Positions 1 through 22,417 of a stretch of DNA of 64,000 nucleotides are shown one piece after another. Position 1 is the stretch's first letter. Each line of letters begins with the position of its first letter. The stretch comes from Vibrio coralliirubri. Lineage in GTDB: Bacteria > Pseudomonadota > Gammaproteobacteria > Enterobacterales > Vibrionaceae. A program made the translations under genes and the position numbers. The notes under the pieces are model-generated. The model made no database searches. It saw only the letters and a list, made by a program, of their open reading frames with translations, and was not told where the DNA came from. The stretch covers positions 2,604,001-2,668,000 of the forward strand of contig NZ_AP025470.1 in assembly GCF_024347375.1 (NCBI RefSeq), read 5' to 3'.

Positions 1-1654
1 GAATACGTTTCTTCATATACAGAAATGTATCCGCAAGCGCCTCATCATCAGCAAGCTGCTTAGTGTTAAGCCTGCGTACTTTTTGTATGCGCTCATGTTC
101 AAAAAGGGACAGTCCTTTTGTATATCCGGTGTTGTCTACCGCTGGAACTTTTATGTACATCTTTTCCGATTCTAGATAAACATGAATAGAGCTGATATCA
201 GAAGGGTCTGTTTTGGTCTTAACAAACAGCTTTTTGCCATTGTTGGACGCCCAATATTTACGGTATTCAATAAGTTCTGAGGACTGATAGTGGAGATTAT
301 GAAGCCTGATCCCTGCTACTCCAATGGTTCTGTGTCTAAGCAAACCTAGCTCAACTCTCAACTGCTCCTTCTCAACACCACTGTAGTAAGAGGGAGTCCA
401 TTCCGATTGATTCCACTTGTGGTATGGAATGTCACGTTCTCTTGAATCAGGTGCCATATGGTAATAGTCGACAATCCACTTATGAAGTAGCTCAAGAAAC
501 ACGGAAACTCTAACCACCGCATCCTTCTTTGGGTTGTAATCTTGTAGCTGAGTAGGATTGGTGAACGTTTTTCCAGGCAGTGCGTTCACTAACCCTTTGT
601 TCATCTGATCAAACAGCTTTTCGATCCCTGACTTTCGCCAAGGTTTAGCAGCTTGACTGTATTGGATATCAGACACTAGAGGCCGTAACGAATCTTCTAA
701 GCTTTGGCTCCAAAACTCGGCACCATTGTCGACAACTAAACAGTCAATCTTACCGTGGCAAGGCCATTCATTATCAATAGATGGATATCTTTGCTTTACC
801 CAACTCTTATCTAGCAGCGAGTTCAATAACGCCTTCCTCACAGAATCAAAACTAGGCTCTCTAAAGTTGATACTGCACCCAACGATACATTTACTGAAGC
901 GATCATAAAGCATCGTCAGGTAGGGTCGCCCCAAAGGAATATCTAACTCATCATCAATCAGAATAACTGGAACTGGGGTATGGTCAATTTCGACATATTC
1001 CATTGGTTTTGTCGCAGCTACTTGTTGGCCAACTGCTCGAAACTTTCGATTTGCAAATCGTTTACCAAACCTTGCAATCGCGACTTCATAAGGAGGTAGA
1101 GCATGTATTCGATTATAAAAAGAGCGTTCGGCAATTGGCTTAATTTTCCCTTCGACAATCTCTCGATTTATTTGAATCACTCGACTCTTATAATATCGGT
1201 ATGCTTCTGCGACACTTAGCCGTTCGCGAGTCAGGTATACGTTCTTAATCGCCTCATTAATCAAGGCTTGTGAATCCATTTCTCCTCGGCTGTTGCCCTT
1301 ATACGTATGCTTGGGTATGAGTGCCCATGGCTCTCTACCTGCTTCAAAGTAGGATTTTTTCCAAGTTGCTAAAGTTCTCCAACTCGGGGGAGTGAGCTGT
1401 AATTCTGATTCCACGAGACTTAAGAGAGGGTTCAAGTTTTTTTCGGTCCATCCGCCTTTTAAACGCTTCTCTACGAACGCGATGATTTTGATACGACGAA
1501 TAACTTCTTGCTGTACCTTCGGTGATTGAGAGTCAATAGTCGAAGAAATTTCAATAGGTTCTTGAATTAGCTCTATTGGAAGTTGCTGAGGCTCTCCTTC
1601 TGAAGCTTCAAATTCATCAAAGAACCCAAAAATGTTATTAGAGTCCGATGGCAT
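1..1654 (-). CDS. tnsB: TnsB-like DDE transposase, partial (3' end outside window)
   Basis: Transposase subunit that binds the transposon ends and joins the 3' ends to target DNA, working with TnsA. Translation from the ATG at 1654 stays open for 551 codons to the window edge. A retroviral-integrase-type DDE core is visible: D224 (in VEIDHT), D309 (in VVDNGAEF) and E345 (in SGIEKLF), with 35 residues between the last two, as expected for DD35E enzymes. The start lies 2 bases after the tnsA stop, so the pair is almost certainly cotranscribed and translationally coupled. The C-terminal part that would contact TnsC is not visible. Family assignment rests on the DDE spacing plus the adjacent tnsA. 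Confidence 0.88.
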   Translation of the reverse strand, partial: MPSDSNNIFGFFDEFEASEGEPQQLPIELIQEPIEISSTIDSQSPKVQQEVIRRIKIIAFVEKRLKGGWTEKNLNPLLSLVESELQLTPPSWRTLATWKKSYFEAGREPWALIPKHTYKGNSRGEMDSQALINEAIKNVYLTRERLSVAEAYRYYKSRVIQINREIVEGKIKPIAERSFYNRIHALPPYEVAIARFGKRFANRKFRAVGQQVAATKPMEYVEIDHTPVPVILIDDELDIPLGRPYLTMLYDRFSKCIVGCSINFREPSFDSVRKALLNSLLDKSWVKQRYPSIDNEWPCHGKIDCLVVDNGAEFWSQSLEDSLRPLVSDIQYSQAAKPWRKSGIEKLFDQMNKGLVNALPGKTFTNPTQLQDYNPKKDAVVRVSVFLELLHKWIVDYYHMAPDSRERDIPYHKWNQSEWTPSYYSGVEKEQLRVELGLLRHRTIGVAGIRLHNLHYQSSELIEYRKYWASNNGKKLFVKTKTDPSDISSIHVYLESEKMYIKVPAVDNTGYTKGLSLFEHERIQKVRRLNTKQLADDEALADTFLYMKKRI

Positions 1655-1656
1655 GG

Positions 1657-2280
1657 TTAACACCAAACGTAAGTTTCGAGACCAAACCCAATACCGTTTA
1701 GGTCTGTTTTAACTTGCCCCGAAGAGATCCAAGGTAGAGTAGAAATAAGTGTGTCCTGCTCCGATAAACCGAAATACAAAGACACCTCTTGTAACTTCAC
1801 CATTTGTTTCCGTTGAATAAACGCCAACACTAACTTTTGAAACTCAGTCACTGTCCGCAATCCTGAGTAACGGTGTAGTAGCTTGAAGTTATCTAAAGTT
1901 GGTCCCATTCTAATTTGCTTCTCAGTAACTAAAACCAAGCGTCTGTTAAACTCATTTAACGCAACTCTTTGTTTCTCTTCAAATCTATTCCTGAAATCAG
2001 GTTTGAGAATCTGACTAGAGTGTTTTACTTCGAAGAGGGTTGACTGCTCGTTGTGATCCGCTACTAAAAAGTCTGGGGTATATCGGCACTTACGATTATT
2101 GAATTGATAGTGGAAGCCAAAAGGTTGAGAGGTAAAACTTTTAACATTTGCGTTATATTCGAGGTGAAAACAGAAATCGAACTCCAAAATAGAGAGTGTG
2201 CGAACAACCGCATCATTCTTCAAGCTCATGAACTTACAGATGTTGTGTACGTGAGATGATTTCTTGGTTTGGTCGAACAT
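1657..2280 (-). CDS. tnsA: TnsA-like transposon endonuclease
   Basis: Restriction-endonuclease-like subunit that cuts the 5' strand at transposon ends, allowing cut-and-paste movement with TnsB. The 207-residue protein shows the TnsA catalytic pattern: an acidic residue at E41 (HLEYN), D70 in RYTPDF, then E84 and K86 in LFEVK. It is somewhat shorter than E. coli Tn7 TnsA (about 270 residues) and similar in size to TnsA of Vibrio type I-F3 elements (from memory). It is the gene closest to the transposon end and is followed 2 bases later by tnsB. The ribosome binding site before the ATG at 2280 is weak; an inverted repeat lies just upstream and may control the operon. Confidence 0.88.
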   Translation of the reverse strand: MFDQTKKSSHVHNICKFMSLKNDAVVRTLSILEFDFCFHLEYNANVKSFTSQPFGFHYQFNNRKCRYTPDFLVADHNEQSTLFEVKHSSQILKPDFRNRFEEKQRVALNEFNRRLVLVTEKQIRMGPTLDNFKLLHRYSGLRTVTEFQKLVLAFIQRKQMVKLQEVSLYFGLSEQDTLISTLPWISSGQVKTDLNGIGFGLETYVWC

Positions 2281-2291
2281 AGCAAAATCAC

Positions 2292-2315
2292 TTTTGTTGT
2301 AAACCTACAACAAAA
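2292..2315. promoter_or_regulatory. Perfect 10-bp inverted repeat upstream of tnsA
   Basis: TTTTGTTGTA, four bases (AACC), then TACAACAAAA. It lies 12 bases upstream of the tnsA start and inside the transposon. The form suggests an operator for a dimeric repressor, for example an element-encoded Xre-type regulator (inference). A weak stem without a U-run makes it a poor terminator. Confidence 0.5.
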
Positions 2316-2323
2316 AAATAGAC

Positions 2324-2364
2324 TATGAAAACTTATGGTGCAAATATGAAGACTTATGATGCAG
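2324..2364. repeat. Two 20-bp direct repeats, probable TnsB binding sites
   Basis: Two near-identical copies, 2324-2343 and 2345-2364, repeat every 21 bp: TATGAARACTTATGRTGCAR. On the opposite strand each contains CATAAGT, resembling the CCATAAATTGAT-type sites in the ends of I-F3 elements (from memory). Multiple 20-bp TnsB sites near each end are typical of Tn7-like elements. A third, degenerate site (CGCATAAATTGCAG on the minus strand) appears to run into the terminus at 2395. Confidence 0.6.
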
Positions 2365-2409
2365 AAATGAAGAAAGCCTGCAATTTATGCGAACATATAT
2401 TGCAGGCTT
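2364..2409 (-). terminator. ffs terminator spanning the transposon junction
   Basis: Downstream of ffs on the minus strand, an 11-bp stem AAGCCTGCAAT / ATTGCAGGCTT (2399-2409 and 2374-2384) is followed by a T-rich run TTCTTCATTTC. The loop (2385-2398) holds the proposed transposon terminus at 2395, so the 5' half of the stem is chromosomal and the 3' half with the T-run belongs to the element. Confidence 0.65.
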
Positions 2410-2415
2410 CAATAT

Positions 2416-2521
2416 GGGTGGGAACCCAGCCACATCCCGGCACACAAGTCACTCGCTGCGGCTGCTCCCTTCCAGGCCTGACCGAGTTCACGAGCTATTG
2501 TTGCGGGAGGACCAGGCCCCC
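2416..2521 (-). ncRNA. ffs: Signal recognition particle 4.5S RNA
   Basis: Small SRP RNA that binds Ffh and targets nascent inner membrane proteins. The minus strand carries the conserved domain IV core GGTCAGGCCTGGAAGG followed by GAGCAGCC, differing from E. coli by a few bases, and the conserved TGTGCCGGGATG. The 5' GGGGGCCTGG pairs with the 3' CTGGGTTCCC through Watson-Crick and G-U pairs, which closes the rod. The expected size (about 106-114 nt) and the neighbouring atl, ybaY and tesB match the E. coli ffs locus. Ends are set by the terminal helix and may be off by a few bases. Confidence 0.93.
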
Positions 2522-2523
2522 AT

Positions 2524-2552
2524 AGATTCGTTTTCTAAGAGGCTTGCCTCAA
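2524..2552 (-). promoter_or_regulatory. Possible ffs promoter
   Basis: On the minus strand TTGAGG and GAATCT are 17 bases apart, with the -10-like box ending 3 nt before the first G of ffs (slightly close). The -10 match is modest, so this is a position-based suggestion. Confidence 0.35.
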
Positions 2553-2661
2553 AGAGTGATTGGATTATTAAGCATCACAGCAACCATTGCAAGCCCTTCC
2601 ACCCTATTTTTGAACAATTGCGGTCTAAGTGCTTATCCTTTATTCAAACCACTAGAAAATC

Positions 2662-2690
2662 GCAGGTAAATTCACCATTTACCTGCATTT
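2662..2690 (-). terminator. Terminator for the membrane protein gene
   Basis: A perfect 10-bp stem GCAGGTAAAT / ATTTACCTGC with a 5-base loop, followed on the minus strand by GATTTTC. It lies just 3' of the gene ending at 2714 and separates it from ffs. Confidence 0.6.
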
Positions 2691-2713
2691 GGAAGGTTTG
2701 GATTGCTGGAGTA

Positions 2714-3457
2714 CTAAATATCGATGTCTTCGTTATCTTCTGTGCGAATGATGTAGTCTGTCATCCACGCGGTACCTAATAGACACAACCACACCACAAA
2801 GACTGGGCTTGGTACTTCGATGCTTGGAGTGATCACCAGAGCCGCAAAACCGACCGTTGGCAGTGTCCAACACAGTAGTTTATTCCAGCGGAAGGTTTTC
2901 AAGCGCGTCAGCGTTTCCATCGATGCCATGATGCCCGTTATACACAAGGCCACCAAAGCAGCATAAGGTAAATCGGCTATCCATAATGGAAGTATTAAGC
3001 CTAATGACCACCAGCTGTGTCTACTGGCTGGCTTAAGGTGATTTGCCGCCCACCAAATTACGATGATTGATAAGGTCTGAAGTGTGGTAACCCACGGGAC
3101 GCCTTCAAGCTTGCCTGCTGATTGTGTCACCATGATCCCGACCTGCAAAGTAGTCACAATCAAGCCGGAAATAATCACGACCGACAAACTACTGCGTCTT
3201 GAGAAGACCACCATCAATAGCGGGAACAGTACCCACGCACTGACAGACAGCGTGATAGGCTGCAAAGGAAGGGTTAGACCATAAGTGGTCATGGCAGCAA
3301 GCAAAGCTAATCCTGCTATGCCTCCCTGCGGTAAAATCCATAATGCAGGAATGACCATTGCAAGCACCGGGATATCTCCCTCACTTAAACTGATTGCTCT
3401 CGCGCAAACAACCGCTAATAATGTGGTGATCAAGAACTGAAACGTTGTAAATACCAT
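2714..3457 (-). CDS. Hypothetical multi-pass inner membrane protein
   Basis: The 247-residue product is almost wholly hydrophobic, with roughly seven or eight predicted membrane segments starting at the N terminus (FLITTLLAVVCARAI) and a short acidic, probably cytoplasmic C-terminal tail (TEDNEDIDI). No catalytic motif or named family is recognised. It stands alone between ffs and the divergent atl, with its own terminator at 2662-2690. The start at 3457 has an acceptable purine-rich upstream sequence (GAGAGGG). It may be a lineage-specific Vibrio protein inserted into the otherwise conserved ffs-atl neighbourhood. Confidence 0.75.
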   Translation of the reverse strand: MVFTTFQFLITTLLAVVCARAISLSEGDIPVLAMVIPALWILPQGGIAGLALLAAMTTYGLTLPLQPITLSVSAWVLFPLLMVVFSRRSSLSVVIISGLIVTTLQVGIMVTQSAGKLEGVPWVTTLQTLSIIVIWWAANHLKPASRHSWWSLGLILPLWIADLPYAALVALCITGIMASMETLTRLKTFRWNKLLCWTLPTVGFAALVITPSIEVPSPVFVVWLCLLGTAWMTDYIIRTEDNEDIDI

Positions 3458-3508
3458 AGCCCTCTCCTTCTACCGATCCGTGGTATTAATGAACTAGGAA
3501 CATTTAGT

Positions 3509-3811
3509 ATGGACCAATTTTTGAGCCAAATCTTTGCTGTGATTCACCAAATTCCATATGGGAAAGTAACAACTTATGGAGACATAGCACGTTTTTCAGG
3601 ATTTCCGGGCTATGCGCGCCATGTTGGTAAAGCGCTGGGTAACCTGCCAGAAGGTAGCAAACTGCCTTGGTATCGAGTGATAAACAGCAAGGGTGAAATA
3701 TCTTTAAAGGGTGATTCGTTCGACCGACAAAAGCAGCATTTGGTTAAAGAAGGGGTTGAGGTGAGTGATGCAGGAAAAGTTAAACTCAGAATATACAAAT
3801 GGCAGCCCTAG
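3509..3811 (+). CDS. atl: Alkyltransferase-like protein Atl (MGMT family, no active Cys)
   Basis: DNA damage recognition protein that binds O6-alkylguanine and hands it to nucleotide excision repair. The 100-residue product has the MGMT DNA-binding domain (IPYGKVTTYGDIA, then GYARHVGKAL). In the position of the MGMT active site PCHR it has P53-W54-Y55-R56, so the acceptor cysteine is replaced by tryptophan, which defines the Atl/YbaZ group. A TAGGAA motif lies 9 nt before the ATG. The ffs-atl-ybaY-tesB order equals the E. coli ffs-ybaZ-ybaY-tesB order. Confidence 0.92.
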   Translation: MDQFLSQIFAVIHQIPYGKVTTYGDIARFSGFPGYARHVGKALGNLPEGSKLPWYRVINSKGEISLKGDSFDRQKQHLVKEGVEVSDAGKVKLRIYKWQP

Positions 3812-3886
3812 AGCTGCCACTAATCGCTGATTCAACTGGCTAAGTTAAGCCAATCAAGATGCCTTAACAGTGGCATCGATTTCTGA

Positions 3887-4327
3887 TTAACGAACACCAA
3901 CCAAACGTAGGTCTGCTTGCTGTGTATTTTCTACATCAGTAATTACTGACTTAATAGTATCAGTAGTGAAACGCAGTTTACCGTCAACATGAATCGATGC
4001 GCGCATGTTGTAACGGTGGTTAGTTTTAATTTTGTCGTTGTCGTAGCTTAGCTCGAATGCGAACGGTACTTGCTTACCGTCTGTGGTGAACTCTTGAGTT
4101 GCGATAACCGTCGATGGTGCGTCAGCCAGTGAGATATCTTCTAGCGTAACGGTAACTACTGCATTCTCTGGCAATGCAATTCTTTCACGGTAGCTTACTG
4201 TTCCTGAAATCACTTGAGTGTTCTCTGCAACCACTTCTTGAGAAGCGTTCGTTTCTGATGTTGCTTGGCAACCAACAAGTAGGCCAAACGATACTAAAGA
4301 CGTAATAAGAATTAGAGCCTTTTTCAT
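3887..4327 (-). CDS. ybaY: YbaY family lipoprotein
   Basis: Predicted lipoprotein of the YbaY/YscW-like family. The ATG at 4327 gives 146 residues beginning MKKALILITS, with a hydrophobic signal and lipobox LVGC, so Cys20 would be lipidated. The mature part is beta-rich and contains the family pattern VSYRERIALPENAVVTVTL. A TTG two codons upstream is open but less likely; AGAGA is 8 nt before the ATG. It sits between atl and tesB as in E. coli. The molecular function is not known. Confidence 0.85.
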   Translation of the reverse strand: MKKALILITSLVSFGLLVGCQATSETNASQEVVAENTQVISGTVSYRERIALPENAVVTVTLEDISLADAPSTVIATQEFTTDGKQVPFAFELSYDNDKIKTNHRYNMRASIHVDGKLRFTTDTIKSVITDVENTQQADLRLVGVR

Positions 4328-4495
4328 ATTCAATTTCTCTCAACATGTTTGCCGGACTCGGCAAATCTACTCACCAATTATAAGAGAGCTTTCATATTCT
4401 GTCTTGAAACCCTATGATTTATTGACAGATATCTGACTAAGCGAAATGATTAACACCATAATCTGACACCCATTTTACGAAGAGGAATGCTGGCG

Positions 4496-5356
4496 ATGAG
4501 TCAACCTTTACAAGAATTACTAAGTTTACTTCAGCTAGAAAAACTGGAAGAAGGTTTATTCCGTGGGCAAAGTGAGAACCTAGGCCTACCACAGGTATAC
4601 GGCGGTCAGGTATTGGGACAAGCGCTTTCTGCTGCTCGTTATACCGTTCAAGACGACCGTAGTGTTCACTCGTTCCACAGTTATTTTCTGTTTCCCGGCG
4701 ACCCTGAAAAGCCAATCATTTACGATGTTGAGAACCTACGAGATGGACGCAGCTTTAGCACGCGCCGTGTGAAAGCGATTCAAAATGGCCGCCCTATTTT
4801 CTACCTCACTGCTTCTTATCATGGCGATGCGCCAGGGTTTGAGCACCAGATTTCAATGCCTGATATTCCTGGACCAGAGAACTTTGCCTCAGAAACTGAA
4901 TTAGCGAGCCACATTGCGGAATTCTTGCCTGAGAAACTGCGCAAAACCTTCTGTGGCGAAAAGCCGATTGAAATGCGCCCGGTGACGGTGGTAAACCCAC
5001 TGAAACCTAAGAAGACGGAAGCGAAACAGTACCTTTGGGTAAGAGCGAATGGCGCGATGCCAGACAACCAACTGATCCACCAATACCTGCTTGCCTATGC
5101 ATCGGATTGGGGATTCTTGGTTACGGCGCTTCACCCTCATGAAGTCTCTATCATGACGCCAAATTTCCAAGTCGCGACGATTGACCATTCAATCTGGTTC
5201 CATCGCCCATTCAAGATGGATGAATGGCTGCTTTATGCGATTGAAAGCCCAACGGCAGCGAACACTCGCGGCCTAGTTAGAGGCGAGATCTTCAACCAGA
5301 AAGGTGAGCTGGTAGCGACAGCAGTACAAGAAGGTGTGATGCGTTTTACTAAATAG
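4496..5356 (+). CDS. tesB: Acyl-CoA thioesterase II
   Basis: Hydrolyses medium- and long-chain acyl-CoA to free fatty acid and CoA. The protein is a double hot-dog and aligns without obvious gaps to E. coli TesB. The catalytic residues known from E. coli are visible: Asp in YASDWGF, Thr in VATIDHS and Gln in AVQEGVMR. I chose the ATG at 4496 rather than 4487 because the GAGGA ribosome binding site is then correctly placed and the product has 286 residues, the E. coli length. It is followed by a terminator. Confidence 0.95.
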
Positions 5357-5412
5357 CGCTCAAATAAATAGCGGATAAACGCTTCTTACAAGCCCCAAAT
5401 ACACACAAACAA

Positions 5413-5446
5413 AAAGAGGCTAGGTTTAATACCTAACCTCTTTCTT
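5413..5446. terminator. Bidirectional terminator after tesB
   Basis: Stem AAGAGGCTAGGT / ACCTAACCTCTT with one mismatch and a TTAAT loop, followed by TTTCTTT. It lies between the convergent tesB and the gene ending at 5490. Confidence 0.8.
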
Positions 5447-5489
5447 TAATGACGCTTAAGAAAACTCGTCACGCAATAATCAATAAAAC

Positions 5490-6155
5490 CTATTCAACTT
5501 CTAACGTTGGCTCAAACTCGCCTTGAACTCGCGTTTTAATGCCATCACCTGCGTCTCGTAGAAGGTTAAATGGCGATAACACTACGCCTTTCACCGCGCC
5601 CTCTGCGGCTCCCTGAGCGAGTTCCTTACTCTTATCAGCTAACAAATTAGCTTGCGCCAAAATACCTGGGACTTCCGCTCGTAGCATTTCAGATTCAGTG
5701 ACGATGACAGGAATAGACTGTTCGCGGTAAGACTTACTTTCAGCGAGCATAGGTGGCATTACGTCTACGCGGTATCTCTTTAATTCCGTTAATGTAGGAG
5801 GAATAACATCGGTTCTTACCTGCTCGACTTCCGTTCGAACATTTTTGACTTCATCTAATATCGCAGGGATTTTGTTGTCGACCGAGGCTACGGTTTGATT
5901 CACGTCATCGATCGTCTTTCTAACTTCTTCGACAGTGTTTAACACCTGAGGAGCAAGATCGCTGACATGTTCAGCAAGCGCTAATAGCTCTTCTACTTTA
6001 AGGCCTTTGGTGAGGCCCGATATGTCTTCGATAACCTGCGGGTAAGTATCAACGATTTCACCGACTTTATTAGTCAATGAGTAGATGGTGTAACCCAAGT
6101 AAAAAATGGCGACCGCCAATACCAACTGGATAGCGGTAGATACTTTTGCAAACAT
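5490..6155 (-). CDS. Hypothetical membrane-anchored coiled-coil protein
   Basis: Unrecognised 221-residue protein. An N-terminal membrane anchor (about residues 7-26, IQLVLAVAIFYLGYTIYSL) is followed by a long helical region. From about residue 115 there is a 15-residue repeat with a proline pair or proline at its head: VIPPTLTELKRYR, VMPPMLAESKSYR, SIPVIVTESEMLR, then VPGILAQANLL. Such a layout suggests an extended helical stalk on the periplasmic or cytoplasmic face. The last 40 residues are less repetitive. It is a single-gene unit between tesB and decR. Confidence 0.75.
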   Translation of the reverse strand: MFAKVSTAIQLVLAVAIFYLGYTIYSLTNKVGEIVDTYPQVIEDISGLTKGLKVEELLALAEHVSDLAPQVLNTVEEVRKTIDDVNQTVASVDNKIPAILDEVKNVRTEVEQVRTDVIPPTLTELKRYRVDVMPPMLAESKSYREQSIPVIVTESEMLRAEVPGILAQANLLADKSKELAQGAAEGAVKGVVLSPFNLLRDAGDGIKTRVQGEFEPTLEVE

Positions 6156-6245
6156 GAATAATCCTTTTCTTTTATCGCAGAGGCGAGATCTAAACTGAGA
6201 CGATAGTTAAACTGAAGCGATAGTTAGCGTATTACTAGGCGCAGC

Positions 6246-6719
6246 TTAAAGCGGCAATGCTGTCGTGTACTTCAATGGTTCCATCGCAAACGTCGAGGTC
6301 ACATTAGAGATACCATCAATGCTATTCACCAAGCGCTTATAGAAATCATCAAAGCACTTCATGTCTTTAACCTGAACCTTCATCATATAATCATATTCGC
6401 CAGCCATGCGATAGAACTCCATCACTTCTGGAAATTCCGACACAGTATTCACAAAACGACCATACCACTCATGAGAATGATCACTGGTTTTCACTAATAC
6501 GAACGCAGTAAAGGAAAGATCCAGTTTTTCTGGGTTCAGAAGTGCGACTCTTTTCTCAATAATGCCGTTCTCTTCGAGGCGCTTAAGCCTTTTCCAACAA
6601 GGCGTTGTGGTGAGGTTGACCGCTTCAGAAATATCGTTCAATGACAAGGTGCTGTCTTCTTGCAGTAACCCTAATATTTTTTTATCTACGGCATCTATCA
6701 CACTTTCACCAAATCGCAT
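6246..6719 (-). CDS. decR: Lrp/AsnC family regulator DecR (YbaO)
   Basis: Transcriptional regulator of the Lrp/AsnC family. The N-terminal helix-turn-helix (residues about 10-60, with [18 protein letters not shown]) and the C-terminal RAM ligand domain ([14 protein letters not shown]) closely match E. coli DecR/YbaO, including KRLVNS and the KYTT.LP ending. In E. coli DecR activates cysteine detoxification. Here it is divergent from a PLP-dependent enzyme of the cysteine desulfhydrase type, which is the natural regulatory target. The tesB-linked location also matches the E. coli ybaO region. Confidence 0.85.
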
Positions 6720-6848
6720 TTAAAGAGAATAATTTTCTACAATTTAAGCAAAACAAAGCAAATATGGCAAAGTTTTTCTCTCTGATTATGGATAAATTAG
6801 AACCATACCAATTACAAAGAATTCCTACACTCGATCAGGAGAACGTTT

Positions 6849-7916
6849 ATGTGCACTGACCATCAATGGATTAACAACGCGATTCGTAAAATTGAAGCGG
6901 ACTACCAACGCTCAGCGGATACGCACCTTATCAAGCTCGATCTACCAAGTATCAAAGGCATTGATGTTTACCTTAAAGATGAAAGCACACACCCTACCGG
7001 CTCTTTAAAGCACCGTTTAGCGCGTTCTCTCTTCTTATACGCTATCTGTAACGGTTGGGTTGGCCCAGAAACAACAATCATTGAATCTTCATCGGGTAGC
7101 ACTGCGGTATCTGAAGCTTACTTTGCTCGACTACTTGGTCTACCGTTTATTGCAGTAATGCCAAAATGCACAGCGAAGAAGAAGATTGAACAGATAGAAT
7201 TCTACGGTGGCCAAGCGCATCTTGTTGACCGCTCAGATGAAATTTACGATGAGTCTCGTCGTTTAGCAGAAGAATTGAATGGTCACTACATGGATCAATT
7301 TACTTACGCTGAGCGCGCAACCGACTGGCGTGGTAACAACAACATCGCGAACTCGATTTTCAATCAAATGCAGATGGAAGATCACCCAGTTCCAGCTTGG
7401 GTAGTAATGAGCCCAGGTACTGGCGGTACTTCAGCGACTATTGGCCGTTTCATTCGCTACCAACAACATGAAACTAAGCTTTGTGTTGTCGACCCTGAGA
7501 ACTCTGTATTCCACGAATACTTCCAAACAGGTAATGCGAATGTGAAAGGCAGTACATTCAGCAAAATTGAAGGCATTGGTCGCCCACGAGCAGAACCAAG
7601 CTTCATTCCTGGTGTGGTTGACGAAATGCGTAAAATTCCAGACGCAGCAAGTATCGCAACGACACATTGGTTATCTGACATTCTTGGCCGTAAGGTTGGC
7701 GCATCAACCGGTACTAACATGTACGGTGTGCTTCAGCTAGCCAGTGAAATGAAAGCACGTGGAGAAACAGGTTCTATCGTGACTTTACTGTGTGACAGCG
7801 GTGAGCGTTACCTAGACACTTACTTCAATGACGAGTGGGTAAATCTCAATATCGGTGACCTACAACCTTATGCTGCGAAGCTAGAAGCTTTCTCGCAAAC
7901 GGGTGAGTTGGCTTAA
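6849..7916 (+). CDS. PLP-dependent cysteine desulfhydrase-like enzyme (Cds1/CBS fold II)
   Basis: Fold type II PLP enzyme of the cysteine synthase superfamily, probably degrading L-cysteine to pyruvate, ammonia and sulfide. The PLP lysine is K54 in TGSLKHR; the substrate loop SSSGSTA, the phosphate-binding loop PGTGGTSAT and the C-terminal CDSGERY serine that contacts the pyridine nitrogen are all present. The 355-residue length fits Cds1-type proteins. GGAG lies 7 nt before the ATG. Divergent decR supports a cysteine-detoxification role. Other members make cysteine or related amino acids, so the exact reaction is inferred. Confidence 0.72.
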
Positions 7917-7941
7917 GTTCAAAACCGATAGTTCGAAATAG

Positions 7942-7967
7942 AAAAGAGCCCTTGATGGGCTCTTTTT
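7942..7967. terminator. Terminator after the cysteine desulfhydrase-like gene
   Basis: AAAGAGCCC / GGGCTCTTT stem with a short loop and T5 on the plus strand; A-rich on the other side, so it can also serve the convergent DUF1244 gene. Confidence 0.85.
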
Positions 7968-8006
7968 GTTTATTCATTCTATTAGTCAGCCACTAACGAG
8001 AACAAA

Positions 8007-8327
8007 TTACTCTGGCTTCTGCTTCGCTTCAAATGCCGCGAGTTGTTCAGGCGTCGCTTTTGGTTGATGGTTTTGTTTCCACTCATCGTAAGTCATGCCG
8101 TATACACGCTCACGAGCGTCATCGATATCCAAGTCTAAGCCTTGTTGCTCTGCTTCCGCTTTGTACCATTTACTGAAACAGTTTCGGCAGAAGCCAGCCA
8201 AGATCATCAGGTCGATGTTCTGCACATCTTTATTGTTATCTAGGTGTGCTAGCAGGCGACGAAAGGTTGCTGCATCCAGCTTATCTTGTTCTTCTTGAGA
8301 AAGATCTTTGTATTTAAATTCAGCCAC
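8007..8327 (-). CDS. DUF1244 family protein
   Basis: Conserved 106-residue soluble protein of the DUF1244 family. Recognisable by AATFRRLLAHLDNN, MILAGFCRNCFSKWY with two closely spaced cysteines, and YGMTYDEWK. Function is not established. It is predicted cytoplasmic, mostly helical and acidic. The ribosome binding site AAGGAAAGTAAAGTGGC-type purine stretch precedes the ATG at 8327. An IS3-family element lies directly upstream, separating it from the efflux genes. Confidence 0.85.
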   Translation of the reverse strand: MAEFKYKDLSQEEQDKLDAATFRRLLAHLDNNKDVQNIDLMILAGFCRNCFSKWYKAEAEQQGLDLDIDDARERVYGMTYDEWKQNHQPKATPEQLAAFEAKQKPE

Positions 8328-8432
8328 TTTACTTTCCTTTATTCGATTTATTGTATTAATTCGTTGAGCTCTGTTTGTTATACAAAAAAAGCCTGCAATT
8401 CTGAAGTGACCCCGTAAAGTTGGACATTTCTG

Positions 8433-9218
8433 TTAAGCGGCTTTCAAGGCCTGAGTTCGATATTCTATCGGAGTCAGGCCTTTTAGTTTCACTTTTATAC
8501 GTTTGGTATTGTAGTACTCGATGTATTCTTTAATCTGCTCTATCAGAGCATCTGCATCTTCAAAGCTTTGGTTGTGATACATCTCGGTTTTGAGTAAAGC
8601 AAAAAAGTTTTCAGCAACAGCATTATCCAAGCAGTTACCTTTTCTCGACATGCTTTGCGTTAACCCACTCTCCGCTACCTTTTTCTGATACTGTCGATGG
8701 CGATATTGCCAACCTTGATCGCTATGTATAATTGGCTTTGAGTTGGGTTTAAGCGTTGATATAGCTTCCGTCAGCATATCTGTGACAAGCGGCAAGCAGG
8801 CATTTTTGGCCACTCTATAAGCAACCACCTCCTGAGTAAACAAGTCGACAACGGGAGATAAGTATACTTTCTGCTCTTTGACTTTGAACTCCGTGACATC
8901 AGTTACCCACTTTTCATCGGGTTGAGTCGCACTAAAATCTCTTTCAAGAACGTTGGGAGCAGCTTTTCCTGACTCTCCTCGGTATGAACGATACTTTTTA
9001 ATCCTGACCGTCGATTTAAGGTTGAGCTGAGCCATAAGCCTTTGAACCGTTTTGTGATTAAGCACGAACCCCTGATTCTTTAGTTCCAAGTGAATACGGC
9101 GGTAGCCGTATCGCCCCTTATGTTCATGATAAATTGACTTTATCAACCGCAGCTCACGTTCGTAGCTATTTTGGCGCTTGCTCGTTTGAGCCTGATAATA
9201 AAAGACACTTTTTGCCAA
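8433..9218 (-). CDS. IS3-family transposase OrfB (integrase core)
   Basis: Catalytic part of the transposase. DDE residues are visible as D in WVTDVTEF, D in IHSDQGWQY and E in NAVAENFFALLKTE. The N-terminal KGRYGYRRIHLEL motif is the IS3/IS150 HTH_21 region. The reading frame is open upstream of this ATG to the slippery run in orfA (residues KEKAVIALTLKGKYPLKHLL), so the working protein is expected to be an OrfAB fusion made by -1 frameshifting rather than OrfB alone. Length from the ATG is 261 residues. Confidence 0.92.
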   Translation of the reverse strand: MAKSVFYYQAQTSKRQNSYERELRLIKSIYHEHKGRYGYRRIHLELKNQGFVLNHKTVQRLMAQLNLKSTVRIKKYRSYRGESGKAAPNVLERDFSATQPDEKWVTDVTEFKVKEQKVYLSPVVDLFTQEVVAYRVAKNACLPLVTDMLTEAISTLKPNSKPIIHSDQGWQYRHRQYQKKVAESGLTQSMSRKGNCLDNAVAENFFALLKTEMYHNQSFEDADALIEQIKEYIEYYNTKRIKVKLKGLTPIEYRTQALKAA

Positions 9219-9271
9219 CTGTAGAGTGTGCAGTAAGTGCTTTAATGGGTACTTGCCTTTAAGAGTTAGAG

Positions 9272-9781
9272 CTATGACCGCTTTTTCTTTGTTCGACGGT
9301 TTTTTTTCTGCTCCAACTCTTCCAACTTTTTTAGAACGGCATTCTCGGTTCGTAAGTAGACCAACTCCTCTTTTAGCTCCTCAAGTGTCATTTCATTATC
9401 AGGCTTAGTGGTACGTTGAGGTTGCTGTTTCATTGAGGGTCTTCCTTTCTGGCGCATTTCGAGCCCCTTGATACCGAGCTCATTAAATCGTTTAAGCCAG
9501 ACAGAGAGTATTCCAGGGGATGAGAGGTTTAATACAGCGCTAGTGTGCGTGAGAGACCATTCATTCGTCCACATTAAATTCAATGCTTTTCGTTTTGTTT
9601 GAGCAGTCGCGGCATGATTAGTTGGTAAAAATGAATCAGTACCATGGATGGCAAAGACTTGAGCCCAATACCGTATCTGCCTTGAAGAAATTGAATATTG
9701 TTTTGCTAAGTAGAGAGATGACGTGCCATCTAAGTATTGCTTAGCAATGATACATTTTAGCTCTCGGCTATATTTGGACAT
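9272..9781 (-). CDS. IS3-family OrfA (DNA-binding protein)
   Basis: 169-residue helix-turn-helix protein that recognises the IS ends. It starts MSKYSRELKCIIAKQYLDG at 9781; the open frame continues upstream past the IS terminus but that part is chromosomal. Two helix-turn-helix segments (YLAKQYSISSRQIRYW and TSAVLNLSSPGILSVWLKRF) precede a leucine-zipper-like end LRTENAVLKKLEELEQ. Eight consecutive A residues on the minus strand (9300-9307), followed by C, give an A-AAA-AAC slippery site; a -1 slip there joins it to the orfB frame. Confidence 0.88.
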   Translation of the reverse strand: MSKYSRELKCIIAKQYLDGTSSLYLAKQYSISSRQIRYWAQVFAIHGTDSFLPTNHAATAQTKRKALNLMWTNEWSLTHTSAVLNLSSPGILSVWLKRFNELGIKGLEMRQKGRPSMKQQPQRTTKPDNEMTLEELKEELVYLRTENAVLKKLEELEQKKNRRTKKKRS

Positions 9782-9897
9782 AAAAAGACCCCCAATAATT
9801 GGTGTCCAACTATTGGGGGTCAGTTCATTCGCTAGGAGCAAACGCAGGCTTTTCAATATTGTTACACTATTCCGTGTTCATTAATCGTGCGTGTTCA

Positions 9898-12800
9898 TTA
9901 ACCGTGAGAGGTTCTTCCCACGTTGTCATGGCTAAGCTCTTTATTAAGCTCCGCTTCCACGTGACCTGGAGAGCGTGTTGAGCCAGAAATCAGTCGGTAC
10001 ATCGCAGGGATAACGAACAGAGTAACCAATGTCGCGAAGCCCATACCGAAGAAGATAACCGTACCCACAGCCACTCGGCTTTCATAGCCTGCGCCCGTTG
10101 AAGTAATCAATGGAATTGCGCCAGCTAGCGTCGTAAATGCCGTCATCATGATTGGACGTAAGCGTCGAGCCGAAGCATCAATGATCGCCTTTTCAAACTC
10201 AATACCACGGTCACGAAGTTGGTTAGCAAACTCCACGATCAAGATACCGTTTTTGGTTACCATACCGATCAACATGATCATACCAATCTGGCTGTACACG
10301 TTGAGGCCTTGACTCATCAGTACTAAGCCTAAGAAGCCACCAAAGATACCCATAGGTACGGTGAACATCACCACCAGCGGGTTAATGAAGCTTTCAAACT
10401 GCGCGGCCAGTACCAAATACGCGACCAGCATTGCTAGAGCAAATACCACTAGGATACTTGATTGGTTCTCTTTGAAGTCTTTTGACTCGCCAGAGTAGCT
10501 CACTGAAATATCACCCGGTAACTGTTCAATCGCTTGTTCATCAAGGAAATCGAGCGCGTCACCTAGCGTGTAACCTTCCATTAGGTTCGCCTTGATGGTC
10601 ACCGATTTCTGCTTGTTGTAGTGCGACAAACGAATCGATGATGCCACTTCTTCAATGTGCGTCAGCGTATCGAGTGTAACCAGCTCACCAGATTGAGTTC
10701 GCATGTAGATTTGGCTTAGGTCGTTCGCGTTGTTGAAGCTGTTTTCATCACCACGCAGATACACGTCGTACTCTTCACCACGATCAACGAAGGTCGTTTC
10801 ACTGCGGCCGCCAAGCATGATTTCTAACGTATCTGAGATGTCTGAGACGCTAACACCTAGCTCTGCTGCACGCTGCTTATCTACGGTTACCAATAGCTCT
10901 GGTGTTTTCTCAGAGTAATCGATGTCCGCACCTTCCATCATTGGAGAATCTTCAGCCGCTTGCTTTAAGAGCTCTGCCCACTTCTGAAGTTCAGAGTAAT
11001 CAGAACCGCCAAGTACGAATTGAACTGGCTCACTTGAACCACCTTTGAAGCCCGGCATGAACGGGAATACACGCACATCTGGAATGCCGTTCAACGATTT
11101 ACGAACTTCGTTCAACGCTTCTTGTGCGGTAACGTCACGCTCATCCCAATCTTCTAGGATCATGATTACAAAGCCCGTTTGGTCGCCCGCATTACCACCA
11201 AACGCTGGTGATTGAATACTGAATGACTTCAAGAAGCCTTGACCAAGCAATGGCATTAGACGCTCTTCAACGATGTCCATGTTGGCAGACATACGGTTGT
11301 AACTGGTTGCATCGGCACCACGAACAAACGCAAAGATAACACCACGGTCTTCTTGTGGCGTCAGTTGCGACGGCACTTGTTGCATCAAGCCATAACTACC
11401 GCCCATACACGCGATAATGATGATTGGAGCCGCCCAACGCCAGTTTAGAGCACGGCGCAATACCGATCGGTATCCAGATTCAAGTTTGCCAAATACGCGC
11501 TCGACAAACAGGTTGAAACGGCTTGGTTTAACGTTCGCTTTTAGGATTTTACTGCTTAACACTGGCGTCAATGTTAATGCGACTAGCGACGAGAAGATCA
11601 CCGACATAGCAAGCAATACAGAGAACTCGGTAAATAACAGACCAACCATGCCGTCCATGAACGAGATTGGTAGGAATACCATTACCAATACAAGCGTTGT
11701 TGCGATTACCGCGAAGCCTACTTCACGAGTACCTTTATAGGCAGCAAGCAACGGTGACTCACCACGTTCAATATGGTGGAAAATGTTCTCAACCACCACG
11801 ATCGCATCATCTACCACCAAACCAATCGACAGGATAAGTGCCATCAGGGTAATCAGGTTGATAGAAAAACCGAAGTAGTACGCGGCAATAAACGACGAGA
11901 TCAGAGATACAGGTACGGTTACCGCTGGAATAAGTGTTGCACGTGCTTGACCAATAAAGATGTAAAGCACAAGGATAACCAAGCCACCCGTGATAAAGAG
12001 CGTGCTGTAAACCTCTGAAATAGAACGGTCGATGAATACTGTTGAGTCATAATCGACAGCTAAACGAGTACCATCTGGCAAGAACTTTTGAATTGCTTCG
12101 ACTTCTTTATGGACTAAGTCAGCCACCTCAAGTGGGTTCGCATCTGACTGAGGCACAATACCCATACTTACGTTAACAACGCCGTCACTCTTAAAGGTCG
12201 AGTTCTCGTTTTCTGCGCCAATGTAAACATCCGCTACGTCTTTTAAGTAGATAGGTGTGTTATCAGAGGCACGTTTAACGACTAGGTATTCGAAATCTTC
12301 CGCTTCAGTGTAAGAACGAGCAGTACGAACCGACATCACAATCGCATCGTTACGTACTTCACCACCTGGGCTTTCAATGTTCTCACTGTTCAACGCAGAA
12401 GTGATGTCCGAGGTAGTAACACCACGACCCGCCATCTGCGCAGGTTTCAGCTTCACGTACATTACTTTGTACAAGCCACCTGAGATATCCACTGAGCTGA
12501 CGCCCGAGATCAAACTAAAGCGGTCAATCAACACACGTTCGGTGTAGTCGGTTAACTGCGTTCGGTCCATCTCCGTCGAACTTAAGTTGATGTAGACCGA
12601 AGCTTCACCACTACCATTGTTCTTATAAACAATTGGGTCGTCGGCTTCATCGGGCAATGAACGCTGCGCACGAGCTACGGCGTCACGAACATCACTCACA
12701 CCGGTATTGAGGTCGTAACCAAGCTCAAAAGTAATCGTGATACGCGACATACCGTTACGCGTTGTGGATTCGATCTCATCGATACCACTAATACCGGATA

Positions 12801-13011
12801 ACTGGTCTTCAAGATTGGAGGTTATTTGGCTTTCAATGATGGTGGCAGACGCACCCTCATAACGAGTACTGATCGATACCACCGGGCTTTCAATATCTGG
12901 CATCTCACGAACTGCGAGCTTATTGAAAGAGACAATACCAAACACAACCAATAGTAGGCTCAATACGACGGCCGCTACTGGTCTCTTTACAGAAACATCA
13001 GATAACAACAT
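9898..13011 (-). CDS. RND efflux transporter permease (HAE1/AcrB-like)
   Basis: Inner membrane proton-driven pump subunit of a tripartite multidrug efflux system. The 1037-residue length and layout are standard for the family: a first membrane helix (VAAVVLSLLLVVFGIVSF), two large periplasmic loops, TM4 with the proton-relay aspartates in GLVVDDAIVVVEN, and TM10 with lysine in MVTKNGILIVEF. Its ATG overlaps the adaptor stop by one base (TAATG), so the two are coupled. No outer membrane factor gene is adjacent, suggesting use of a TolC encoded elsewhere. Which of the Vibrio Vex systems it equals cannot be decided here. Confidence 0.93.
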   Translation of the reverse strand: MLLSDVSVKRPVAAVVLSLLLVVFGIVSFNKLAVREMPDIESPVVSISTRYEGASATIIESQITSNLEDQLSGISGIDEIESTTRNGMSRITITFELGYDLNTGVSDVRDAVARAQRSLPDEADDPIVYKNNGSGEASVYINLSSTEMDRTQLTDYTERVLIDRFSLISGVSSVDISGGLYKVMYVKLKPAQMAGRGVTTSDITSALNSENIESPGGEVRNDAIVMSVRTARSYTEAEDFEYLVVKRASDNTPIYLKDVADVYIGAENENSTFKSDGVVNVSMGIVPQSDANPLEVADLVHKEVEAIQKFLPDGTRLAVDYDSTVFIDRSISEVYSTLFITGGLVILVLYIFIGQARATLIPAVTVPVSLISSFIAAYYFGFSINLITLMALILSIGLVVDDAIVVVENIFHHIERGESPLLAAYKGTREVGFAVIATTLVLVMVFLPISFMDGMVGLLFTEFSVLLAMSVIFSSLVALTLTPVLSSKILKANVKPSRFNLFVERVFGKLESGYRSVLRRALNWRWAAPIIIIACMGGSYGLMQQVPSQLTPQEDRGVIFAFVRGADATSYNRMSANMDIVEERLMPLLGQGFLKSFSIQSPAFGGNAGDQTGFVIMILEDWDERDVTAQEALNEVRKSLNGIPDVRVFPFMPGFKGGSSEPVQFVLGGSDYSELQKWAELLKQAAEDSPMMEGADIDYSEKTPELLVTVDKQRAAELGVSVSDISDTLEIMLGGRSETTFVDRGEEYDVYLRGDENSFNNANDLSQIYMRTQSGELVTLDTLTHIEEVASSIRLSHYNKQKSVTIKANLMEGYTLGDALDFLDEQAIEQLPGDISVSYSGESKDFKENQSSILVVFALAMLVAYLVLAAQFESFINPLVVMFTVPMGIFGGFLGLVLMSQGLNVYSQIGMIMLIGMVTKNGILIVEFANQLRDRGIEFEKAIIDASARRLRPIMMTAFTTLAGAIPLITSTGAGYESRVAVGTVIFFGMGFATLVTLFVIPAMYRLISGSTRSPGHVEAELNKELSHDNVGRTSHG

Positions 13012-14087
13012 TAGTTAGCGCCTTCTTGTACTTTTCTATCACTTGCTGCATCAGCTGGGCGATTAACGGTAAGCTCTTGAACCAAGACGCCGTCACGCAT
13101 GTTCACGATACCTTGCACCACGATCTTCTGGCCAATTTCGATGCCTTTGTCGATCACGACTTCGTTATCAATACGTGCCCCAAGGAAAACTTCTGTACGA
13201 GTTGCTTTGTTATCTTCGTCGATAACATAAACGAAACGCTTCGTACCTGAATACTCAAGCGCTTGAACGGGAATAATTGGCGCTTCCACTGGTGGGAAGT
13301 CCATATCCGCTGCCACTAGCATGCCTGGCTTTAGATAATCATTATTGTTGTCGAAGTGAATTCGAACTCGAAGGTTCAAGGTTTCAGCGTTAATACGTGA
13401 ATCAATGCCAACGACAGTACCAGTGAACTGAGTGTCGCCCCATGCGCTAGTGCGAGCCGTTACTTTCATACCTTTAGACAGTTTAGAAAGGTAGCGCTCC
13501 GGGATCTGCAGATCTAATTGCATTACAGATAGGTCGTCTAGGGTCACGAGTTCAGTACCTGCTGTCACCATTTTACCGCGGCTAAAGTCGATAAAACCAA
13601 CAGTGCCCGAGAATGGCGCGCTGATGTGAAGATCTTTCAGGTTGGCATTTGCAGCAGCTAAACGAGCATTGGCGATCTCTACGTTCGTTTTCTGAGCGTC
13701 AATTTCCGTTTGCGTGATCGCGTTACGTTTCACTAGGCGTTGAAATTCCGCTAGCTTACGTTGCTCGTCTTTTAGATAAGCTTGAGCCTCTGCAACCGCC
13801 GCTTTCGCTTTGTCGTCATCAAGCTGAACCAACATCTGCCCTTTAGTGACATCTTGATTGGCTTTAATGTTGATAGAATCCACTCTGCCAGCCACTTCAG
13901 AAGTGATCATTACCGATTGCTCGGCTTCTAACTTACCGACCAACGAAAGAGATTGGCTAACTTGGTGAATATCAACCTGCTCAGTAACAACAGTGACAGT
14001 GCTAGGGCCCATACGTTTAGCAAGTACGGCTGGAGACGCCATAAGAATAGACAAGCTAAGCAGGGTTAAAACAGATTTATGCTTCAT
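13011..14087 (-). CDS. RND efflux periplasmic adaptor (membrane fusion protein)
   Basis: Adaptor that links the RND pump to an outer membrane channel. From the ATG at 14087 the product has 358 residues, starting with a signal sequence MKHKSVLTLLSLSILMASPA cleaved after VLA. The biotinyl-lipoyl halves are visible (SVMITSEVAGRVDSI and LKDLHISAPFSGTVGFI), flanking an alpha-helical hairpin (about 95-145), then beta-barrel and membrane-proximal domains. The frame is open 10 codons further upstream, but that extension lies in a dispersed repeat element, so I reject it. It is the first gene of the two-gene efflux operon. Confidence 0.92.
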   Translation of the reverse strand: MKHKSVLTLLSLSILMASPAVLAKRMGPSTVTVVTEQVDIHQVSQSLSLVGKLEAEQSVMITSEVAGRVDSINIKANQDVTKGQMLVQLDDDKAKAAVAEAQAYLKDEQRKLAEFQRLVKRNAITQTEIDAQKTNVEIANARLAAANANLKDLHISAPFSGTVGFIDFSRGKMVTAGTELVTLDDLSVMQLDLQIPERYLSKLSKGMKVTARTSAWGDTQFTGTVVGIDSRINAETLNLRVRIHFDNNNDYLKPGMLVAADMDFPPVEAPIIPVQALEYSGTKRFVYVIDEDNKATRTEVFLGARIDNEVVIDKGIEIGQKIVVQGIVNMRDGVLVQELTVNRPADAASDRKVQEGAN

Positions 14088-14111
14088 AATAATGGTCTGC
14101 AAGTAAGTTTG

Positions 14112-14283
14112 TACCAATCACAGTGAGTAAGTGGTCAGAAATAGCTTAGGGAAAAGCTTGAGAACAAGGCAGCTCTTTTCAACAGATAGTTTCGATAAGT
14201 AGTTATTCTACAATCAAAATATCTGACGCTGTTCTCGAGCATTTTAGCAAGCTAAGATGACACGTTATTTACTACGATTGGTA
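14112..14283. repeat. Dispersed palindromic repeat, copy 1
   Basis: A 172-bp element bounded by TACCAATC at 14112 and GATTGGTA at 14283, with longer imperfect terminal inverted repeats. It is about 80 percent alike by eye to copy 2 at 33247-33406, sharing AGCTTGAGAACAAGGCAG and GATAAGTAGTTATTCTACAA. It has no coding capacity and looks like a non-autonomous MITE-like or REP-like repeat. It lies between the adaptor gene and the tRNA array. Confidence 0.8.
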
Positions 14284-14546
14284 TTATTATCTATAAATGA
14301 AATTAACCGTATTCTATCAACTGATGAATGCTGTAACGTCAAGAAGTGTAAATCTAGATTAAATTCCATTTACGTTTCATCATGTTTTAGACACATTGAA
14401 CACAATACAGAAAGCCAGTCACCTCAAGGTGTTACCTATCAGTACGTAAACCTTAGTACAGATGTTCACTTCACGAGCAATATGCGTACTTTTCGCCATC
14501 TTTGCCCAAAAAGGCAGCATTTAACACAAAACCATAAGAAAAACCC

Positions 14547-14574
14547 TTTACAGGTTTAGCGTGTTTGCTATGAT
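14547..14574 (+). promoter_or_regulatory. Promoter of the tRNA-Tyr array
   Basis: TTTACA (14547-14552) and TATGAT (14569-14574) are 16 bases apart, followed by a GC-rich discriminator GCGCTCCGC. A GC-rich discriminator is typical of stringently controlled stable RNA promoters. Transcription would start near 14581, about 70 nt before the first tRNA. Confidence 0.75.
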
Positions 14575-14650
14575 GCGCTCCGCACTTGAGAGATGCGTTG
14601 GGAAAAACATCTCTTTAGCCTATCCATTATGAGTTAGGAAAAAACACCCT

Positions 14651-14735
<85 letters not shown>

Positions 14736-14838
14736 TATTTCTTCTTACCTCTTTTAAGAGTTAAGAGAACAACCTGATTGATGGGCTTATGGGAAAACAT
14801 CAATTTAGGCTTACTTTGTGAAGAGTAAGACACACCCT

Positions 14839-14923
<85 letters not shown>

Positions 14924-15025
14924 TATTCTTCTTAGCTCTTTTAAGAGTTAAGAGAACAACCTAGTTGATGGGCTTATGGGAAAACATCAATTTAGGCTTA
15001 CTTTGTGAAAAGTAAGACACACCCT

Positions 15026-15110
<85 letters not shown>

Positions 15111-15212
15111 TATTCTTCTTACCTCTTTTAAGAGTTAAGAGAACAACCTGATTGATGGGCTTTTGGGAAAACATCAATTTAGGCTTACTTTGTGAAGAGT
15201 AAGACACACCCT

Positions 15213-15297
<85 letters not shown>

Positions 15298-15399
15298 TAT
15301 TCTTCTTACCTCTTTTAAGAGTTAAGAGAACAACCTAGTTGATGGGCTTATGGGAAAACATCAATTTAGGCTTACTTTGTGAAAAGTAAGACACACCCT

Positions 15400-15484
<85 letters not shown>

Positions 15485-15586
15485 TATTCTTCTTACCTCT
15501 TTTAAGAGTTAAGAGAACAACCTGATTGATGGGCTTTTGGGAAAACATCAATTTAGGCTTACTTTGTGAAGAGTAAGACACACCCT

Positions 15587-15671
<85 letters not shown>

Positions 15672-15773
15672 TATTCTTCTTACCTCTTTTAAGAGTTAAG
15701 AGAACAACCTAGTTGATGGGCTTATGGGAAAACATCAATTTAGGCTTACTTTGTGAAAAGTAAGACACACCCT

Positions 15774-15858
<85 letters not shown>

Positions 15859-22405: not shown

Positions 22406-22417
22406 ACGAACTCATGC

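Follow-up and report, generated by a model that had tools for sequence, protein, structure and literature searches.

How did a large mobile element come to lie directly behind ffs, the gene of the small signal recognition particle (SRP) RNA, in Vibrio coralliirubri, and what guided it there? The question is raised by the window, the whole stretch of 64,000 nucleotides analyzed here (G000:C1:2604001-2668000 in a 5.74-Mb genome of two contigs; window coordinates are genome positions minus 2604000, and negative ones lie left of the window). A first-pass annotation had read its first 2521 positions as the end of a Tn7-like element, probably a type I-F3 CRISPR-associated transposon (CAST; CRISPR, clustered regularly interspaced short palindromic repeats). 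That reading is supported: in 77 kb of the left flank, we found the rest of a complete I-F3 CAST of 29,850 bp, window -27438..2411, situated just 3' of ffs. The best explanation, to which we assign a probability of roughly 0.85, is that this CAST homed to ffs by a 20-nt guide, that guide length is linked to landing distance, and that a smaller Cascade (CRISPR-associated complex for antiviral defense) would be the means. We class the element as an I-F3 variant whose homing guide is naturally shortened; among relatives, guide length tracks landing distance. The features on which this argument depends are the following.

1..2411 (-): right end of the CAST, placed by its termini and a 5-bp duplication
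2412..2416 (no strand): right copy of the target-site duplication ATATG; left copy at -27443..-27439
2421..2517 (-): ffs, small SRP RNA, the attachment gene (RF00169, 73.5 bits, E=1.7e-14)
2460..2479 (-): ffs protospacer for the 20-nt guide, genome 2606460-2606479(-); protospacer-adjacent motif (PAM) TC at 2480-2481
-24120..-23985 (-): CRISPR array
-24095..-24076 (-): homing guide, 20 nt, matching ffs
-24113..-24099 (-): hairpin of the homing unit, CTGCT(gaaca)AGCAG

The remaining 27,439 bp of the CAST lie left of the window (G000:C1:2576562-2604000, window -27438..0). Perfect 5-bp copies of ATATG flank TGATGCTTGC...GCAGGCTTCA on both sides, with the left terminus at -27438 and the right terminus, ...GCAGGCTTCA, at 2411. 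The proposed docking behind ffs was thereby confirmed, ffs being the Rfam match listed above, while the ends had to be corrected. The element does not extend through 2521, since 2421-2517 is ffs itself, and the TGT/ACA triplet at 2393-2395, previously taken as its terminus, is internal; the ends are TGA/TCA, as shown by the ATATG duplication and by distances in relatives. In all 24 rows with TGA-type ends (21 distinct genomes; two appear twice, and L083/L109 were taken as one), the distance between PAM and terminus was 67-69 bp, and this constancy, together with the duplication, sets the boundary at 2411. A right end at 2393-2395, which would lie 47 bp from the end of a 32-nt protospacer, was rejected because empty sites and the duplication give 2411. 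TGT/ACA ends, used as a mark of I-F3 CASTs, are thus absent here; they are not defining, because relatives carry either TGA or TGT. A scar at ffs in G109 (L018), in which the left tip is joined to the right tip between copies of AATGG, represents a nearly fully deleted CAST and agrees with the TGA/TCA ends assigned here.

The array consists of two typical repeats around a 32-nt spacer, followed by a last unit composed of a handle, AGGCCAGGAAGAAAGCAACC, three bases, and the hairpin CTGCT(gaaca)AGCAG. This last unit is the self-targeting ffs guide that had been predicted left of the window. Its match to ffs stops at nucleotide 20, short of the 32 nt expected of a homing spacer and present in the other spacer of the array, and its hairpin begins 23 nt after the handle, as compared with 37 nt in the normal unit. 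With every sixth position omitted from the count (a rule kept for all match counts below), the guide agreed with ffs at 16/17 positions in 1-20 and at 3/10, near chance, in 21-32. The pattern AGGCCNGGAAGNNAGCANCC (20 nt, four positions open) occurs exactly at only two places in the 5.74-Mb genome, the guide and ffs. The anticipated offset of about 50 bp between spacer match and junction holds if counted from the 20-nt match (48 bp) but fails if counted from a notional 32-nt match (only 36 bp), and the distance from the PAM fits 20+48 = 68 bp. The short spacer is a departure within I-F3 and not a defining feature of the type; the I-F3 traits of a guide for the attachment site beside the right end, and of a 5-bp duplication with insertion about 48-50 bp past the guide match, are both present. 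The ordinary 32-nt spacer matched no target in the plasmids or phages searched.

The ffs attachment site with a TC PAM was already known for I-F3 CASTs (PMC12774636). The site (ffs or rsmJ) and the diverged homing repeat (CTGCT/AGCAG versus the typical CTGCC/GGCAG) suggest, following PMC11406308, that the element belongs to the I-F3b branch, an assignment based on site and repeat and not on a tree with named I-F3a members.

To relate guide length to landing, we compared 30 genomes with a readable guide and ffs junction on one contig, the termini being called by pattern in 16 and by eye in 14 (TGT ends). Left out were G676, G752, G791, and G858 (guide locus and ffs match, junction unreadable), G772 (no ffs match), G042 and G616 (68 bp each, arrays unread), and G019 (array and ffs on different contigs). 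Short guides (24 genomes) matched the host ffs at 97% of positions 1-20 and at 28%, near chance, of positions 21-32, whereas the corresponding values for full guides (six genomes) were 89% and 78%. The distance from PAM to element was 68 (14 genomes), 69 (5), 71 (2), 72 (2), or 75 bp (1) with short guides and 79 (2), 80 (3), or 81 bp (1) with full ones; the two ranges do not overlap (Mann-Whitney p = 8.7e-5, uncorrected for kinship). The best contrast was provided by an araC-type site, at which, with the same PAM (CC) and protospacer start, a full guide in G134 (10/10 in 21-32) goes with 83 bp and a short guide in G120 (4/10) with 69 bp, while the two element ends share 64-67% translated identity over the tnsA and tnsB stretches. 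In loci L140 and L142, the 3' end of a gene for an AraC-type regulator serves as attachment site, a site outside the four main I-F3 ones named in the literature passages. The shift amounts to about 12 bp between the ffs classes and to 14 bp both at the araC site and relative to VchCAST, in which a 32-nt spacer places the insertion 82 bp from the PAM (32 + 21 + 14 + 15; PMC13345079); PseCAST inserts 49 nt from the target of its CRISPR RNA (crRNA; PMC13228271). Cutting 12 nt from the VchCAST ruler predicts 70 bp and an 18-nt guide 68 bp, and 68-69 bp was seen in 19 of the 24 short-guide genomes.

Short ffs guides proved widespread. They were present in 44 of 50 Vibrio array loci (the other six had no ffs guide), in 23 of 25 named loci (two none), in one of five plasmid loci (two full length, two none), and in five of 23 loci from other genera (11 full, seven none); the named and unnamed sets partly comprise the same genomes, so these counts overlap. 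The 50 Vibrio loci are drawn from 66 match places (the best 30 and 20 more), the remainder consisting of G042, one fragment in G206, two in G140, and 12 weak matches at 32-36% identity. L040, L066, and L127, which lie near contig ends, and L043, which lacks repeats, were counted as having no ffs guide, as was L202 by script, although by eye it carries an ffs-like full guide and is entered as full in the Cas6 tree. In the CAST at L043 (G216), a transposase-like open reading frame (ORF), judged by eye, stands after cas6 in place of repeats. Across loci, the 20-nt guide is conserved while the linker to the hairpin varies between 3 and 5 nt (in one row it is 2, the script having picked another fold there), and one stem pair of the hairpin differs in both of its bases (CTGCT/AGCAG versus CCGCT/AGCGG; two genomes). 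A terminator-like hairpin and a T run follow the homing unit in many of the loci inspected. A class-wide search for the Aeromonas-type Cas6 matched only one of 369 genomes, the one analyzed here, and the landing distance of a full ffs guide on an Aeromonas chromosome was for this reason not measurable.

Most likely, the 20-nt guide would build a smaller Cascade with four Cas7 subunits instead of six, capable of licensing transposition without triggering I-F1 cleavage. Cas6 would cut after the hairpin behind the guide and release a crRNA about 14 nt shorter than normal, which by the length rule of I-F Cascade, L = 6N - 4 (PMC7296934), would seat four Cas7. TniQ, TnsC, and TnsAB would then assemble from the PAM-distal end of the shorter R-loop, and insertion would occur about 12-14 bp nearer the PAM (68 bp versus 80-83), immediately behind the mature end of ffs and ahead of the native terminator. 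The short guide would also stay private: since an I-F1 R-loop must exceed 26 bp to start cleavage by Cas2/3 (PMC7296934), a resident I-F1 system using it should not cut its own chromosome. Such a conflict can arise in nature, because at least G047, G079, and G098 in the genus survey carry both a Cas2/3 above the family cut-off and a short-guide CAST.

The odds slightly favor a broader proposal, namely that a large natural I-F3 group (Vibrio, Neiella, and Aliivibrio) homes by a 20-nt guide and a four-Cas7 mini-Cascade, made beside six-Cas7 complexes from the same array, with length setting the landing distance and sparing resident I-F1 immunity. If so, guides would be sorted in a second, length-based way, convergent with type V-K elements; this might be how homing guides are kept from supplying a resident I-F1 nuclease, and it would offer a ready-made compact guide with an insertion point movable in steps. 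According to current structures, I-F3 CASTs check pairing near nucleotides 25-32 before licensing insertion (PMC12774636, PMC13345079); if a natural guide lacks these nucleotides, the check would be counted from the R-loop end and not from the PAM. We are unsure whether a short I-F3 homing guide is new. Full-text literature searches returned no description of a natural short ffs guide in I-F3, and Petassi 2020 may contain one. In its body text, PMC12719977 loosely ascribes crRNAs that have partial repeats and short spacers to V-K and to most I-F3 systems (its example being V-K), which weighs against novelty, while its figure legend gives a mismatched spacer for I-F and a truncated one for V-K only.

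How else could these observations be explained? The guide might be an ordinary 32-nt spacer with mismatches tolerated in its last 12 nt and with the hairpin as a degenerate last repeat. A mismatched spacer with a partial repeat is indeed a usual description of I-F3 homing guides, which are known as atypical and mismatch-tolerant (PMC11406308). We nevertheless regard this as improbable, as positions 21-32 match near chance throughout the 24 short-guide genomes and not at the level of the full-length guides, the hairpin falls within positions 24-38 of the unit, and landing is 12-14 bp closer than with full guides. Moreover, mismatches at positions 25-29 and 31-32 abolish or cut VpCAST transposition (PMC12774636), so a 32-nt guide with chance pairing in its last nucleotides is not expected to work. 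Slightly less probable still is a landing distance independent of guide length, with clade differences in TnsC, TnsB, or the ends setting 68 versus 80 bp. Short and full ffs guides do belong to different Cascade clades and the ends do differ (TGA and TGT types), yet at the araC-type site elements with related transposases land at 69 or 83 bp according to guide length, full-guide units of G134 and V. penaeicida nest inside the short-guide clade, and TGTCGC-type ends occur with both 69-75 and 83 bp. Finally, the two transposase genes visible in the window, tnsA and tnsB, could by themselves belong to an ordinary Tn7-like element that finds ffs through a TnsD-type protein, an idea rendered scarcely credible by cas8/5, cas7, cas6, a 404-aa TniQ, and a guide matching ffs. 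A TnsD-type protein without cas genes, named beforehand as the finding that would overturn the I-F3 reading, was therefore not what the left flank held.

Homing by a 20-nt guide that determines the landing distance remains our preferred explanation, and several points weigh against it. Of the five hairpin pairs of the homing unit, RNAfold formed only three. Three short guides (G075, G079, and G736) match 5-6/10 positions in 21-32, and distances scatter more widely (69-75 bp) among the seven ffs elements that combine a short guide with the other, TGT type of end. In a Cas6 tree of 47 rows, with long branches flagged, two changes of guide length suffice; because guide length follows clades, independent contrasts are few, and the araC-site contrast is one genome versus one. 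Array and ffs junction were assigned to one element on the assumption that a shared contig, at about 9-43 kb apart, suffices. For 6-nt shortenings of the VchCAST spacer, PMC10188703 reports "little or no effect" on transposition, an ambiguous wording that, set against its next sentence, we read as little or no integration; if so, a short guide would need extra adaptations, none of which was identified here. Since the shift is about 12 bp in one comparison and 14 bp in the others, an 18-nt guide is inseparable from a 20-nt one by distance; 20 nt is favored by a core of that length that stays conserved across differing linkers.

Among known systems, the I-F3b CAST of Aeromonas salmonicida pS44-1, which we take to be Tn6900, shares tniQ, cas8/5, cas7, cas6, the array, and an ffs-like guide in the last unit, but its guide is full length (32 nt, hairpin offset 37, as against 20 nt and 23 here). 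Tn6677/VchCAST and VpCAST, both I-F3a, have in common with our element TnsB homology, the Cascade-TniQ gene set, and a fixed insertion distance, whereas their ends are TGT and not TGA. Short homing guides of type V-K CASTs are reportedly credited to Hsieh and Peters 2021. V-K elements resemble ours in that a partial repeat and a 17-nt spacer serve for homing (PMC12719977); they differ in using a single-protein effector, Cas12k, where our element has a multi-subunit Cascade expected to scale in size with the spacer. Tn6677/VchCAST and VpCAST further differ in their attachment genes and in the 32-nt guides of their published complexes, with insertion about 82 bp from the PAM (PMC13345079). PseCAST, with TnsAB solved, has the solved TnsA and TnsB closest to ours and a 49-nt ruler (PMC13228271), and unlike for our element, no short homing guide was found for it in the literature passages. 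The I-F1 Cascade with shortened spacers is similar in that 20 nt corresponds to four Cas7 by the rule above; these truncated complexes bind DNA more weakly and do not trigger Cas2/3 (PMC7296934). The I-F1 spacers were shortened by engineering, whereas the short guide described here is a natural, conserved one that matches the attachment site.

Insertion at this position has a consequence for ffs itself. In relatives with empty sites, a GCCGCTC..GAGCGGC terminator follows directly after ffs (one empty row, L025, lacks the second half of the hairpin). Here, the native terminator has been displaced to the far left, beside TGATGCTTGC, at -28910..-27444, so that ffs has lost it, and it is split by an IS3-type insertion. 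That insertion sequence, recognized by eye from its ends and ORFs (L003:8120-9535, window -28880..-27465), lies inside the displaced terminator, just outside the left end of the CAST. At the right end, we found the following structure.

2373..2410 (-): terminator-like hairpin (-20.8 kcal/mol, z -4.6); T-rich sequence follows

The native terminator of a relative folds with -19.7 kcal/mol. The right-end hairpin would replace the lost terminator of ffs, probably with a selective role. The full hairpin is present in 13 of the 21 distinct TGA-end genomes, and the other eight have other, weaker-looking (by eye) or no such pairings. GCCTGCAAT..ATTGCAGGC was rejected as the native ffs terminator because thirteen empty rows show GCCGCTC there and L011 and L030 show variants of it. 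G003 has two ffs genes (L114, G003:C1:2022700-2023900, and L113), one at the CAST right end, the other, which has a native-type terminator, a few hundred bases past the cas6/array side.

The right end further carries the transposase genes and repeats that the first-pass annotation had described.

1657..2280 (-): tnsA, 207 aa; PF08722 (Tn7_TnsA-like_N) E=5.5e-10; PseTnsAB fusion E=9.3e-37
-211..1666 (-): tnsB; PseTnsAB fusion E=6.9e-123; Tn6677 TnsB E=4.2e-62; Mu-transpos_C domain
2331..2389 (-): three CATAA-type repeats, two CATAAGT and one CATAAAT, 23, 54, and 75 from the end

The residues it had listed are in place: TnsA carries E41, D70, E84, and K86, and D224, D309, and E345 of TnsB are correctly numbered from an internal ATG (MPSDSNN), being four higher from an upstream TTG start. 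The suggested comparison with Tn7-family profiles gave PF08722 for TnsA and Mu-transpos_C for TnsB, and the closest solved relatives of TnsB are the I-F3 PseTnsAB fusion, then Tn6677 TnsB. A TnsB outside the I-F3 clade, likewise foreseen as grounds for rejection, was thus not encountered, as judged by similarity and not by tree. The CATAAGT-containing repeats were recovered as well; all three CATAA-type repeats lie <90 bp from the right end and are probable TnsB binding sites. Counting both strands, the whole 29,850-bp element has four CATAAGT. Several ffs elements (L100, L101, L103/L219, L107, L108, and L115) combine short guides with TGT ends and TGTCC repeats. Where tested, their TnsA is 39-47% identical to ours over the part compared and their TnsB 39% (L219), L108 being judged by its end only. 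Short guides with differing ends and transposases point to a possible swapping of transposase modules.

Left of the window, every component predicted for an I-F3 CAST was found (a tnsC-like ATPase gene, tniQ, cas8/5, cas7, cas6, and a short CRISPR array), which supports the proposed type. Family searches covered part of the CAST ORFs.

-1274..-87 (-): tnsC-like ORF; weak ATPase match (TIGR03015, 3.5e-6, below cut-off) and position
-1586..-1278 (+): Xre-type gene
-16591..-2216 (-): cargo, comprising the PADLOC candidates PDC-S11 and PDC-M26A/B, a type I restriction system, and a RadD-like helicase, among others
-20116..-18902 (-): tniQ, PF06527, 404 aa
-22206..-20110 (-): cas8/5, PF09614 (Csy2 region) at residues 438-577; TIGR02565 below cut-off
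-23244..-22213 (-): cas7 (Csy3), PF09615; TIGR02566 above cut-off
-23859..-23254 (-): cas6 (Csy4), PF09618; TIGR02563 above cut-off

The element therefore has the Tn7-type set tnsA, tnsB, and tnsC, the last with the basis given above, and, in one operon, tniQ with a cas8/5 fusion, cas7, and cas6, as is characteristic of I-F3. As expected of an I-F3 CAST, no TIGR02562 match for Cas2/3 was obtained in the genome, in a search that did not extend to cas1. Upstream of tniQ, a perfect inverted repeat (-18899..-18859, arms of 17 nt) is likely a regulator site. The suspicion that the cargo includes defense systems was borne out by the PADLOC candidates and by the restriction system, which comprises hsdS, hsdM in two ORFs, and hsdR. 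The hsdM gene is split at -8995..-7493 into two ORFs (248 and 232 aa), which align with successive portions of a single profile, and given this split methyltransferase gene, the restriction system may be off. Elsewhere in the window, at 14651-15855, lie seven tandem tRNA genes with the same Rfam score and a nearly equal spacing of about 187 bp.

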